DNA of 64,000 nucleotides from Methanocorpusculum labreanum Z (GTDB lineage: Archaea > Halobacteriota > Methanomicrobia > Methanomicrobiales > Methanocorpusculaceae), in assembly GCF_000015765.1 (NCBI RefSeq), contig NC_008942.1, forward strand, positions 883,921-947,920. The letters are read 5' to 3'. The notes under the pieces are model-generated. The model did no database searches and was not told the DNA's origin. It saw only the letters and a program-made list of their open reading frames with translations. Shown here piece after piece: positions 14,266 through 44,983 of the stretch (positions are counted from its first letter, which is position 1; the number at the start of each line of letters is the position of its first letter). The position numbers and the translations under genes are program-made.

Positions 14266-14294
14266 ATACCTCACTCTCGCTCGTCGTGTCCCTC

Positions 14295-14311
14295 GCAAAT
14301 CAAAGATTTGC
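14295..14311 (-). repeat. B-type hairpin GCAAATC-AAA-GATTTGC
   Basis: Perfect 7-bp stem with a 3-base loop, flanked on the minus strand by the usual TTAGCCGAG on one side and GA on the other. It lies inside a longer inverted match CGTCGTGTC...GACACGAC. Same stem sequence as 21577-21593, 39232-39248 and 55975-55991. Confidence 0.85.
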
Positions 14312-15029: not shown

Positions 15030-15145
15030 TGAGAGCAAGCCAATGGCTTGCGGGATTCGCGCTGATTCGCGGTTGGTTCAATCTCAGGTGTCAAAACGGA
15101 TTCCGTACACGAAATCGAAATACATCTCATAAGGACCTCAGTATT
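15030..15145 (-). repeat. Dispersed repeat C fragment with B-type hairpin
   Basis: Contains hairpin GCAAGCC-AAT-GGCTTGC (15035-15051), then GATTCGCGGTTGGTT, and CCGTACACGAAATCGAAATA, the inverse of repeat C copy 1. Shows B and C elements adjoining. Confidence 0.7.
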
Positions 15146-16211: not shown

Positions 16212-16474
16212 GCGAGCTGATCGGCGATGCACCGGGAGACTTTGCCGCCTGGCACAAACTCATCACCGGCTCTTGGGTCTACAACATCGTCACGGGCGAT
16301 GTCATCAGCATGAATACGGGCAAACCGCTCGTGTTCCGTTCGGAAAGGAGCGGGCCATCTCTCAGAACCTATGTCCACGGACACCGGTTCACGGTCAAAA
16401 AAGACCGGGTGGCCCAAGTCGCGTTCTGGATCGGCAGATGCGAAGGGCATATCCCTCTCAGGAGGGCGCCATGA
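16208..16474 (+). CDS. Small unknown protein, second gene of the cassette
   Basis: 88 residues, overlapping both neighbours by ATGA. The middle reads WVYNIVTGDVISMNTGKPLV then RTYVHGHRFTVKKDRVAQVA, which loosely recalls the NUMOD4 repeat found next to HNH homing endonucleases (V.n..G.v.s...g..l......y......g......v..lva..F). The match is weak and no HNH nuclease domain is present here. Function unknown. Translational coupling to the RHH-like gene is strongly suggested by the overlaps. Confidence 0.6.
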   Translation: MSELIGDAPGDFAAWHKLITGSWVYNIVTGDVISMNTGKPLVFRSERSGPSLRTYVHGHRFTVKKDRVAQVAFWIGRCEGHIPLRRAP

Positions 16475-16959
16475 CGGAAGATCTGACGCCGGCCTCTCTC
16501 GAAGCCCTGCTTCTGGAGTGGCGGCCGGTCCCGGACGAGGCGTTCGCCGCGGCATACCGGTATCAGGAGTTTCTCTACTGCTTCAAAGAGCTCAGGCTGC
16601 TCTTCGAAGAACGCCGTAAGGAGCTGATTGCCCTGATCCAACTTGAGGGCCTCGTCTCGGATGCGTTCGTCCTCGAGATCCCGACGGACAATGTCGTGAA
16701 CACGGATATGCTAAAAGACGAGCTGCCCGACATCTATGATGAGCTGGTTTTCATCCAGCCGTCTGATGCAAAGCGGTTTATCGGACTGAAGGCTCTGTAT
16801 GATCTTTCGGTCGAGACGGCAGGCCGTGATCGGGTGGCAAAAGTCGAGCGGGTGAATCTGCTGGATCTGAAAAAGGCCCTGCCGGCTGACGAAGCCGCAA
16901 GGTACGTGACGTCAGTCCCGCACGAGAGTCTGATAAGGGTCGTGCGGACCGCAGAATGA
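16471..16959 (+). CDS. Unknown acidic protein, third gene of the cassette
   Basis: 162 residues from an ATG at 16471 preceded by CAGGAGGG, a strong ribosome site. The frame is open much further upstream (16180) but the overlap pattern and ribosome site fix the start. Rich in Leu, Glu, Asp and Ala with long amphipathic helices (residues 20-55 FAAAYRYQEFLYCFKELRLL and following). No family recognised. It overlaps the preceding stop by four bases and is followed at once by the hairpin array 16976-17163. Confidence 0.65.
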   Translation: MTEDLTPASLEALLLEWRPVPDEAFAAAYRYQEFLYCFKELRLLFEERRKELIALIQLEGLVSDAFVLEIPTDNVVNTDMLKDELPDIYDELVFIQPSDAKRFIGLKALYDLSVETAGRDRVAKVERVNLLDLKKALPADEAARYVTSVPHESLIRVVRTAE

Positions 16960-16975
16960 TGTGGTTTCAACGGGG

Positions 16976-17163
16976 TGAGCCGATAGGCTCGCTCTTAGTG
17001 GGGGCGGGTCGAATGCGAAGCAGACGACCTCAGCTGAGCAAACCGATGGTTTGCGATCAAATCTTTGATTTGCGACGACGGAGTGAACCAAATGGTTCAC
17101 TCTTAGTTAAGCAAGGTTTTTCCTTGCGACTGCAGACCAGGGATGAAGAGGGGGTTTACCCCC
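16976..17163 (+). repeat. Array of six perfect hairpins (repeat B array)
   Basis: In order: GAGCC-gata-GGCTC (16977-16990); GCAAACC-gat-GGTTTGC (17038-17054); CAAATC-ttt-GATTTG (17058-17072); GAGTGAACC-aaat-GGTTCACTC (17081-17102); GCAAGG-ttttt-CCTTGC (17111-17127); GGGGG-ttta-CCCCC (17150-17163). Between them recur CTTAGT, CAGCTGAG and GCGACGA-type linkers shared with the arrays at 20194, 27229, 39173, 44736 and 55975. The final stem ends one base before the ATG of the next gene (17165). Confidence 0.85.
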
Positions 17164-17164
17164 G

Positions 17165-17365
17165 ATGAAGCACTGGTATGATATTCCTGAATTAAGGGAT
17201 AAGGAGACGCTTCTTTGGATGTTTCGCAAAGGAATGACGCGTCAGGAGATCGCAGAGGTGGTTGGGTGTCCCGTGTCGGCGGTGCGTACAGCAGAACTGC
17301 GGCATACGCTGAAAAAGCCGGTGATCATTATATCCGAGGAGCTTCGGCAAAAGCTGAAGCTCTAA
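17165..17365 (+). CDS. Small helix-turn-helix protein
   Basis: 66 residues. LLWMFRKGMTRQEIAEVVGC followed by PVSAVRTAELRHTL is a clear helix-turn-helix of the sigma-70-region-4/Hin resolvase type (Mx4EIAexxGxxxxxVr). The last 15 residues are a short helical tail. It would bind DNA as a small regulator, common on archaeal viruses and plasmids. The ATG comes one base after a GGGGG/CCCCC hairpin, so the ribosome-binding region is inside a stem-loop, which could control its translation. Confidence 0.65.
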   Translation: MKHWYDIPELRDKETLLWMFRKGMTRQEIAEVVGCPVSAVRTAELRHTLKKPVIIISEELRQKLKL

Positions 17366-18868: not shown

Positions 18869-19006
18869 CATCCGGAGTCAAATTCCCTCGCCGGATACTA
18901 CCCATGACCTTGGAAATAGCTATTTGAGGGTATAAAACCAATATATTATAGAACGAAAGCAGCACCTGAATACCTGCATGCTGCCGGATCTTTTTCTGTG
19001 ATCATC

Positions 19007-19993
19007 ATGACTGATACCTTTGAAAAATGCAGATATTATAAAAAACGGATAGACGCATTACGTCCATTTCCTCCGGAAACACTCTCTTCATTAAAGGAAT
19101 ACTTCCGTATAGGTCTCACCTACACCAGCAATGCAATAGAAGGGAACAGTCTTACCGAATCGGAAACAAAGGTCCTCATTGAAGACGGACTCACCGTCAG
19201 CGGCAAGCCTCTGCGTGATATCTATGAAACACTCGGTCATGCCAAAGCATACGGATACATATACGACATCCTTTCAGCCCAAACAATAACCGAAGACCAT
19301 ATCAAAACACTCCACCGGTTATTCTATGACCAGATAGACAAAGGCAACGCAGGCATCTACCGGACAGAGCGTGTTGTTGTCACTGGAAGTCATTACCCCT
19401 TGCCAAAACCGGATCAGATTCCGGATAAAATGAAAAAATATATCGATTGGTTCAATGCCCATGAAAAAACTACTGATCCGGTCAAATTTGCAGCATTGTC
19501 ACACCAGAAATTCGTCTTCATCCACCCCTTCATCGACGGCAACGGACGGGTTGCAAGACTCATCATGAACCTGGTATTATTACGTGCAGGATATCAGATC
19601 TGCATCATTCCGCCAATACTCCGGCATGAATACGTCGAATCCCTCGAACTCGCACATAAAGATACAAAACCTTTCATCGAATTCATTGCAGAACGGATCG
19701 TCGAAACGGAAAAGGACATCCTGAGATTATTTGGAGAGTCAACATCGATGCATGAAGGTGCAAAGCAGATAAATGAAGGTGCAAATCCGAAGGTCAGCCT
19801 GGAAAATGAAGGAGTAAATGCAGTATTGAAACTCATAACATGGCAGCCGGGTCTCAATACCAGAGATTTGTCTGAACTGACAGGTAAAAGCAGATCCAGT
19901 GTTGAAAGGTACATCCGTGTTCTCAAAACCAACGGCATGATCGAGTTCCGGGGTGCTGCAAAAAACGGCGGGTATTACCCGCGGAACGAATGA
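19007..19993 (+). CDS. Fic-domain protein with C-terminal winged helix
   Basis: A 328-residue Fic (filamentation induced by cAMP) protein. The catalytic motif HPFIDGNGR is intact at residues 173-181, so it should transfer AMP or a related group to a target hydroxyl. The N-terminal inhibitory helix motif S-N-A-I-E-G-N (41-47) matches (S/T)xxxE(G/N), so this is a self-inhibited class II protein. The C-terminal region (about 265-328, LITWQPGLNTRDLSELTGKS) looks like a winged helix-turn-helix. Such proteins are often stand-alone stress or toxin-like regulators. A GTG at 18998 is an alternative start. Confidence 0.9.
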   Translation: MTDTFEKCRYYKKRIDALRPFPPETLSSLKEYFRIGLTYTSNAIEGNSLTESETKVLIEDGLTVSGKPLRDIYETLGHAKAYGYIYDILSAQTITEDHIKTLHRLFYDQIDKGNAGIYRTERVVVTGSHYPLPKPDQIPDKMKKYIDWFNAHEKTTDPVKFAALSHQKFVFIHPFIDGNGRVARLIMNLVLLRAGYQICIIPPILRHEYVESLELAHKDTKPFIEFIAERIVETEKDILRLFGESTSMHEGAKQINEGANPKVSLENEGVNAVLKLITWQPGLNTRDLSELTGKSRSSVERYIRVLKTNGMIEFRGAAKNGGYYPRNE

Positions 19994-20340
19994 GTGAAAG
20001 AGAGTTATCAACGGAAATACTCAGTCGCCTTTCCTGCGAAAATATCATATGTGATTATTGCTCAAATGCAAAATATTCACACTTCAAATATAATTTATGT
20101 TTCCAGACCTGAAAAAATCATCTGACAGACATACCCAAATTGGGATGATATACTCTTACGAATCGGGATATTAGTACACAGACACGCCCGCTTGCAAGGC
20201 AAAGCCTTGCTCGGCTAGGGGCGCACTGCGGGCAGCCCGCCTCGGCTAAGGTCGTCCGCTTTCAGCGTCCAACCCGCACCCCAAATAGGAATCCTGATAT
20301 CGTCTTCCCGCCATAAAACACCATACGGAGACATTATCCC
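19994..20340. other. Intergenic region with repeat B/A composite
   Basis: The first half is AT-rich without a recognisable signal. The second half (20188-20290) is an inverted repeat-B composite described separately. No gene. Confidence 0.6.
20188..20290 (-). repeat. Repeat B composite joined to a repeat A end
   Basis: On the minus strand: GGGTGCGGGTTGGACGCTGA, AAGCGGACGACCTTAGCCGAG, hairpin GCGGGC-t-GCCCGC (20228-20240), AGTGCGCCCCTAGCCGAG, hairpin GCAAGGC-ttt-GCCTTGC (20194-20210). The leading GGGGTGCGGG is the outer end of repeat A, so a B unit abuts half of an A unit. Confidence 0.8.
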
Positions 20341-27228: not shown

Positions 27229-27270
27229 GGTGACATTGCATGTCACCAGAAATCACAAATCAAAGATTTG
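27229..27270 (-). repeat. Two B-type hairpins at the end of the BrxD-like operon
   Basis: GGTGACA-ttgca-TGTCACC (27229-27247) and CAAATC-aaa-GATTTG (27256-27270), with CCGAG next to the second on the minus strand. They lie 24-65 bases after the minus-strand stop at 27294, so they would form in the 3' untranslated region. Confidence 0.75.
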
Positions 27271-39002: not shown

Positions 39003-39379
39003 TTAATACAAATTTACCAGATTTTTCATTAATCACATCTCACAGTTTCTTAGCTTAGACATGAAGCAACAGCATTAATATCGAATTAATACATGCATTA
39101 TCCACACGAATCCTCATTATAGTTAGATAGTTGTGCTGATGAATAAATAAGCGGTTGGAGGTGGCAGGTCGACGGCATTGCCGGCGACCTTAGCTGGGGC
39201 GGGAGGAGCCAATAGGCTCATCCTTAGCTGAGCAAATCTTTGATTTGCGACCAAGTCGAGAGACTTGCGATTAAGCGAGTGAAACGAGTCGGCGAGCAAA
39301 TCTATGATTTGCGAGTGGCGGGCCGACCAAACACCAAAATACGCAAAAAGATCAACATCAAAAAATGGAACATTACTGT
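39003..39379. other. Spacer containing a hairpin array
   Basis: The first 120 bases are AT-rich, presumably carrying the promoter of the 39002 gene. From 39165 to 39325 it is a repeat-B array. No gene. Confidence 0.6.
39173..39312 (+). repeat. Array of five hairpins (repeat B array)
   Basis: CGGC-att-GCCG (39173-39183), GAGCC-aata-GGCTC (39206-39219), GCAAATC-ttt-GATTTGC (39232-39248), CAAGTC-gaga-GACTTG (39252-39267), GCAAATC-tat-GATTTGC (39296-39312). The spacers contain CGACCTTAGCTGGGG, TCCTTAGCTGA and GCGACCAAG, shared with the other arrays. Confidence 0.85.
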
Positions 39380-44699: not shown

Positions 44700-44752
44700 G
44701 CGGGTTGGACGCTGAAAGCGGCCGACCTCAGCCGAGCAAACCGAAGGTTTGC
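44700..44752 (+). repeat. Repeat B unit
   Basis: GCGGGTTGGACGCTGAAAGC, GGCCGACCTCAGCCGA, hairpin GCAAACC-gaa-GGTTTGC (44736-44752). A clear full unit of head plus hairpin. Confidence 0.85.
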
Positions 44753-44865
44753 GTGTTGGTGGATTTGGTGTGGGGGACGGGGGAGGGTACTACATGGAGT
44801 CCGTCCAATGGATATTTTTCTTTTCGTGTTTTCGTGTGTTTTTCGTGCATTTCGTGTGATGAGCG

Positions 44866-44918
44866 GGGTGGACGCTGAAAGCGGTCGACCTCAGCTGAGC
44901 AAGGCAAATGCCTTGCGA
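44866..44918 (+). repeat. Repeat B unit
   Basis: GGGGTGGACGCTGAAAGCGG, TCGACCTCAGCTGA, hairpin GCAAGGC-aaat-GCCTTGC (44899-44916), then GA. Same head as 44700 with a different but still perfectly pairing stem. Confidence 0.85.
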
Positions 44919-44983
44919 GAATGCGCCCATAAAAAAGAATCCCATACACGAAATCGAAGTACACCCAAAAAACGAAACCTAAC

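Follow-up and report, generated by a model that had tools for sequence, protein, structure and literature searches.

The window analysed here is a stretch of 64,000 nucleotides, bases 883,921 to 947,920 of the chromosome of Methanocorpusculum labreanum Z (G000), whose genome comprises 1,804,962 bp (PMC3035222, table 3). Within the window, an upstream gene without a Pfam family (16471–16959) and a downstream gene with a weak HTH (17165–17365), both on the plus strand, flank an array of stem-loops at 16974–17163. Gene calls come from a simple in-house predictor, so the coordinates of small genes are approximate. A Fic/DOC family protein with a winged HTH is encoded at 18998–19993, beside small genes without Pfam families.

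The array consists of seven stem-loops, all described here on the plus strand. A preliminary description of the window had listed six perfect hairpins, all of which are present; it had overlooked a seventh that carries G·A mismatches. Hairpin 1 (16974–16993), GGTGAGCC-GATA-GGCTCGCT, is of the A type defined below and has a perfect core, GAGCC-GATA-GGCTC (16977–16990), with a T.G wobble outside it. It is followed by the A-type linker CTTAGT (16994–16999) and by the overlooked hairpin 2, also of A type (17007–17029), GGTCG-AA-TGC-GAA-GCA-GA-CGACC. The linker CCTCAGCTGAG (17028–17038), which belongs to the YTYAGCNRAG type and is itself palindromic, leads to two B-type hairpins, GCAAACC-GAT-GGTTTGC followed by GA (hairpin 3, 17038–17054) and CAAATC-TTT-GATTTG (hairpin 4, 17058–17072). 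Hairpin 5, GAGTGAACC-AAAT-GGTTCACTC (17081–17102), and the B-type hairpin 6, GCAAGG-TTTTT-CCTTGC (17111–17127), precede hairpin 7, GGGGG-TTTA-CCCCC (17150–17163), at the right end. A chance origin of the array is excluded, because it holds four perfect stems of at least 6 bp in 188 bases where dinucleotide shuffles give a mean of 0.155 (maximum 2, n = 1000); in random genome windows the mean is 0.28 and the maximum 4 (n = 3000). Folded as single-stranded DNA, the array has a z-score of -5.9.

An insertion at a gene start

The array has inserted where the downstream gene starts. The site is filled in M. labreanum (G000), in its close congener G023 and in G020, and it is empty in a paralogous gene pair of M. 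labreanum at 1,222 kb and in the orthologues of M. parvum, UBA424 and UBA425, where the first gene's stop directly adjoins the following start (GGAATGATGTGGTACGAATAT). When filled sites are aligned with empty ones, TGGTA-like copies appear on both sides of the array in all three filled genomes. The direct repeat measures 9 bp in G020 (TGGTATGAG), reads TGGTAT in G023 and has decayed in M. labreanum, with TGGTTT on the left (16962–16967, plus strand) and TGGTAT on the right (17174–17179, plus strand). The stop codon of the upstream gene adjoins the insertion, and the present start codon of the downstream gene lies within it: the insertion supplied this codon, and the protein begins MKHWYDIPEL... 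in the window as against MWYEYPEL... at empty sites. The ends of the insertion are conserved in the three species, among them the hairpin at the right end (GGGGGTTTACCCCC) and the start codon acquired by the downstream gene, whereas the inner hairpins differ among them. A clean direct repeat is convincing at the window locus only, with up to 9 bp as compared with 0–3 bp at other clean insertions.

Oriented hairpin cassettes in intergenic spacers

The survey took in the entire M. labreanum chromosome, 800 kb of G023 and stretches of 8 kb from M. parvum, UBA424, UBA425 and further genomes. The M. labreanum chromosome contains at least 54 arrays with two or more module seeds, situated in spacers, and arrays of the same kind are present in several congeners: G000, G005, G009, G010, G020 and G023 are rich in arrays, and G004, G007, G008 and G024 are poor in them. 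In each array, hairpin cassettes of three or more types follow one another head to tail in a fixed orientation. A-type cassettes have the form GCGG-hairpin-YTYAGCNRA, with heads such as GGACC-TTTA-GGTCC, GTTGGACGCTGAAAGCGGCCGACC, GGTGAGCC-GATA-GGCTCGCC and GCCGGTCC-ATA-GGACCGGGC, and the B type the form GA-GCAA-NNN-loop-NNN-TTGC-GA. The N type, CAAGYGAG...CGGAGAGCAA-hairpin-GCGAA, sits nested inside other units, as at 882,375 of the M. labreanum chromosome (within GAGCCGA/CAGGCTC) and in the M. parvum stretch L194 (within a CCCG/CGGG hairpin). These single cases are clear. Insertion into hairpin loops as a general rule was rejected, as the flanks of 22 N units had a mean complementarity of 3.1, not significantly above the 2.8 of shuffles.

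In the window, B-type copies lie on the minus strand at 14280–14310 (CTCGCAAATCAAAGATTTGCTCGGCTAAG) and 20185–20215 (GCAAGGCAAAGCCTTGC), and a second multi-hairpin array with the same linkers lies on the plus strand at 39160–39320. Two A+B pairs, likewise on the plus strand, are found at 44700–44755 (GGTTGGACGCTGAAAGCGGCCGACCTCAGCCGAGCAAACCGAAGGTTTGCG) and at 44865–44920 (with GCAAGGC-AAAT-GCCTTGC as the B module). All positions at which the preliminary description had placed recurrences of the constant frames do hold them, with two minor corrections: the copy at 15035 is embedded in other repeat sequence (GATTCTGAGA...GCGGGATTCGCGC), and at 27256 the frame is CAAA...TTTG, its outer pair being degenerate. 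Ordinary duplication also enlarges arrays, since a 132-bp multi-hairpin unit at 69,607–70,191 of the M. labreanum chromosome occurs in about four tandem copies.

Exchange of whole hairpins

The concerted change of both arms had previously been read as covariation, the mark of something that preserves pairing but not sequence. Pairing is indeed kept while stems vary: in the frame GCAA-NNN-loop-NNN-TTGCGA with a 3-base loop, the variable triplet is fully paired in 62 of 68 intergenic copies. Across the genus, 343 copies of the 7-bp stem are perfect and 65 carry a single mismatch. The perfect copies represent just 12 distinct stems, six of which account for nearly all copies, and each stem is tied to few loops (ATC and GGC to TTT; ACC, ACA and ACT to GAA; GTC to GATA). 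The variants of the B frame are therefore discrete, ready-made cassettes, and the objection anticipated against covariation, that the few variants might all be copies of one another, is partly borne out.

Comparison of close relatives revealed how the cassettes change. In 22 orthologous array pairs (those with G023 covering 800 kb of that genome), 14 modules were identical, 22 similar and 36 replaced or without a partner of the same length. Where the flanks of relatives are 91–99% identical, a hairpin is as a rule retained, missing or substituted in its entirety, its two arms and its loop together. Cassettes are likewise gained as units. In L255 (M. parvum) and L262 (UBA425), whose flanks are 99.7% and 98.7% identical, two A modules and one B module stand against one other A module. 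At 873,122 of the M. labreanum chromosome, the first and last modules are conserved in the M. parvum contig L276 (flanks 97.3% and 97.7% identical), with five inner modules in the former and one unrelated module in the latter; at 779,762, the linkers are conserved in G023 and the hairpin heads exchanged. L276 (strain XII, LMVO01000024.1, 9 kb) was matched against 873–880 kb of M. labreanum, and its flanks are 97–99.7% identical to that species, far beyond the usual similarity of the two, which reflects either a recent transfer or an assembly mixture.

Unambiguous point changes at orthologous hairpins mostly affect one side only, from T-A to T.G or A.C or within loops; examples are T-A versus T.G at 1,193,150, states with mismatches at 724,021 and loop changes at 878,980. 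A single paired point change was seen, TGC/GCA in the window array versus CGC/GCG in G020. Pairing is thus preserved mainly through the exchange of whole hairpins, and the covariation claim was partly right in its outcome and mostly wrong in its mechanism. Apparent covariation among dispersed repeats can stem from hairpin swapping without selection on single base pairs, which is a caution for covariation-based RNA discovery.

Strand polarity of the hairpins

Among distinct oriented hairpins, 42 loops are GNA or GNNA and two are the reverse complements (TNC or TNNC), and A modules carry 16 T.G mismatches versus two A.C plus C.A. The corresponding imbalance in B modules is weak, at 16 G.T/T.G against 10 A.C/C.A. 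Copies are related by descent, so none of these counts is independent. The strand polarity of the loops suggests that what matters is one folded strand of defined polarity. Among the tetraloops GATA, GTTA and GACA predominate, and only one is of the GNRA type. GNRA loops are favoured in RNA, and GNA, GTTA and TTTA loops are stable in DNA; this tilts the balance towards single-stranded DNA as the folded strand.

Resemblance to known repeat systems

The arrays share with REP/BIME elements, and with REPINs and their RAYT transposases, the organisation of extragenic palindromes with unpaired tags into mosaic tandem arrays (PMC2817692, PMC3116915, PMC3733652). Preserved pairing and variation between strains are common to both, and the REP literature speaks of "selection for complementary mutations" (PMC2817692). 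The REP tag is defined as GTAG or CGTC at one end (PMC3733652); neither is present here, where the tags are AGCNGA (5') and GA (3'). PMC3116915 also cites small dispersed repeats (SDRs) under that name. The Methanocorpusculum arrays differ further from REP/BIME in their archaeal host and in the absence of a Y1/RAYT gene from all 25 genomes of the genus searched; their modules run head to tail, whereas BIME modules alternate, and a single constant frame accommodates many unrelated stems.

Cyanobacterial SDRs, reportedly described by Elhai et al. in 2008, are said to be minute hairpins whose stems differ by compensatory changes and among which nested insertions occur; no enzyme is known to move them. 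Compared by description, the arrays show the same tiny hairpins, paired stem differences and nested copies, and they differ in being larger, multi-hairpin, joined by shared linkers and archaeal. Fungal mitochondrial DNA contains double-hairpin elements, which are paired, dispersed, variable in their stems and thought to be mobile; the likeness, again by description, lies in these traits and the difference in the eukaryotic organelle. A literature search for the tag sequence returned no relevant paper. The preliminary description knew of no named repeat family with this design. No known RNA family in Rfam matches the arrays. They work like a BIME or SDR system, although they fail RAYT-based membership.

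We consider it probable (roughly 0.6) that the arrays are mosaics of hairpin cassettes that behave as BIMEs, REPs or SDRs do and are moved by a putative machinery. A putative enzyme or replication-linked process would recognise the folded single strand in its fixed polarity; this would maintain the pairing, the type of loop and the short tags left unpaired, and leave the stem sequence free. The shared linkers may let arrays recombine, and part of the array change could be plain recombination without transposition. Most likely the arrays are DNA that is either selfish or neutral and has a side effect now and then. They give archaea a mosaic hairpin system that is dense, changes fast and lacks the transposase by which such repeats are explained in bacteria, so near-identical strains let the question of the mover be asked.

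Similar elements in Clostridia

A pattern of AGCCGAGC and GCGAACGCC separated by 8–24 bases occurs in 49 copies in six Clostridia/Bacillota genomes (reversed control: 0), which were picked by a tag-like pattern, the similarity of the tags being partly selected for. Matches labelled Burkholderiaceae, Bacilli, Cloacimonadota or Clostridia INTA look like misbinned Methanocorpusculum contigs and were left out of the counts. Thirty-five copies are perfect hairpins (19 of the 30 distinct ones) with freely differing stems, and the loops of the 19 include 13 GN(N)A and one TNC. These repeats, found in metagenome-assembled genomes (MAGs) and for which we found no name, have in common with the archaeal B module the 5' tag AGCNGAGC, the 3' tag GCGA, free stems and GNA loops on the same strand; they differ in continuing as GCGAACGCC(ACGAAG), and their stems vary more freely. 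Their distinct perfect hairpins, at least 19 across the six genomes, show that it can be structure, not sequence, that is conserved. Descent of the Clostridial and archaeal elements from a common element is possible; if they are related, the class spans two domains.

It is conceivable, if rather doubtful, that the elements of Methanocorpusculum and gut Clostridia form an unnamed class of tiny mobile hairpins, of which only the structure and short tags (AGCNGA-hairpin-GA) would be recognised and the stems left free, and which some enzyme that is not Y1/RAYT would move in the form of one folded strand. Viral carriage was rejected: at least 120 matches to the Clostridial tag pattern in viral contigs (IMG/VR) included no perfect hairpin and are put down to chance, thus serving as a chance control, and phage records held none.

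The pattern is also carried by contigs L208, L249, L252, L274, L301, L291 and L299, labelled Burkholderiaceae, Clostridia, Bacilli, Acholeplasmataceae or Cloacimonadota. Those examined resemble Methanocorpusculum spacers and are probably misbinned MAG contigs. In the Clostridia MAG contig L241, at about 850–960, a hairpin element seems to split the T loop of a sequence resembling tRNA-Arg(CCT), adjoining further copies of that tRNA-like sequence.

Alternative explanations

The arrays might instead encode structured RNA under selection (leaders, 3' ends, attenuators or processing sites), in which folding of the transcript forces compensatory changes. We regard this as improbable. The strong pairing, the polar loops, the T.G wobbles of A modules and the position of the window array between co-directional genes would suit a transcript; however, arrays as a whole have no consistent orientation relative to genes (28, 20, 17 and 15 in the four oriented gene contexts), are missing at orthologous genes, have their content wholly replaced between close relatives and favour tetraloops other than GNRA. 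In the window, Rfam 15 gave no match above the gathering score, the best for the array being 15.4 bits against 35.

True REP/BIME or MITE elements, moved in trans by a transposase unrecognised so far or since lost, are to our mind no likelier. Mosaic palindromes with short unpaired tags, the empty sites and the direct repeats at the window insertion are what such elements would leave, and the strand polarity fits single-strand transposition; against them stand the missing GTAG or CGTC tag, stems that lack one conserved sequence, and the Y1 transposase (PF01797), found in none of 25 Methanocorpusculum genomes by a search that was positive in five control genomes. As only three of the six Clostridial genomes were positive too, RAYT/Y1 was rejected as the mover. 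A reverse transcriptase was ruled out as a common motor, being absent from the array carriers G000, G009, G010 and G023 and patchy elsewhere.

Replication template switching that copies arm onto arm, perfecting palindromes without selection or mobility, would account for perfect arms in neutral-looking spacers and for point changes in pair, wobble and mismatch states, but it is very unlikely, leaving unexplained the dispersed cassettes with constant linkers, the clean insertions and the switch of both arms and the loop at once to a cassette that already exists; changes between orthologues mostly lead to cassettes present elsewhere. Intrinsic terminators were dismissed as the stems are not followed by a run of T and point in no consistent direction relative to genes, and CRISPR as the hairpins differ and the linkers are short and recurrent, in place of identical repeats with unique spacers.

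Other repeats in the genome

A second family, ...GATTCGCGCCGATTCGCGGTTGG, is dispersed genome-wide, with 87 copies of GATTCGCGGT; it often lies near AGCAAATCCGATTC and GCAAGCC-hairpins, for example at 15035 of the window. Further abundant spacer palindromes across the whole genome are GAAAAACCCGC...GCGGGTTTTTC and GAAAAACCGGC...GCCGGTTTTTC, with 10-mers in up to 90 copies; they are terminator-like, and their inner pairs are variable too.
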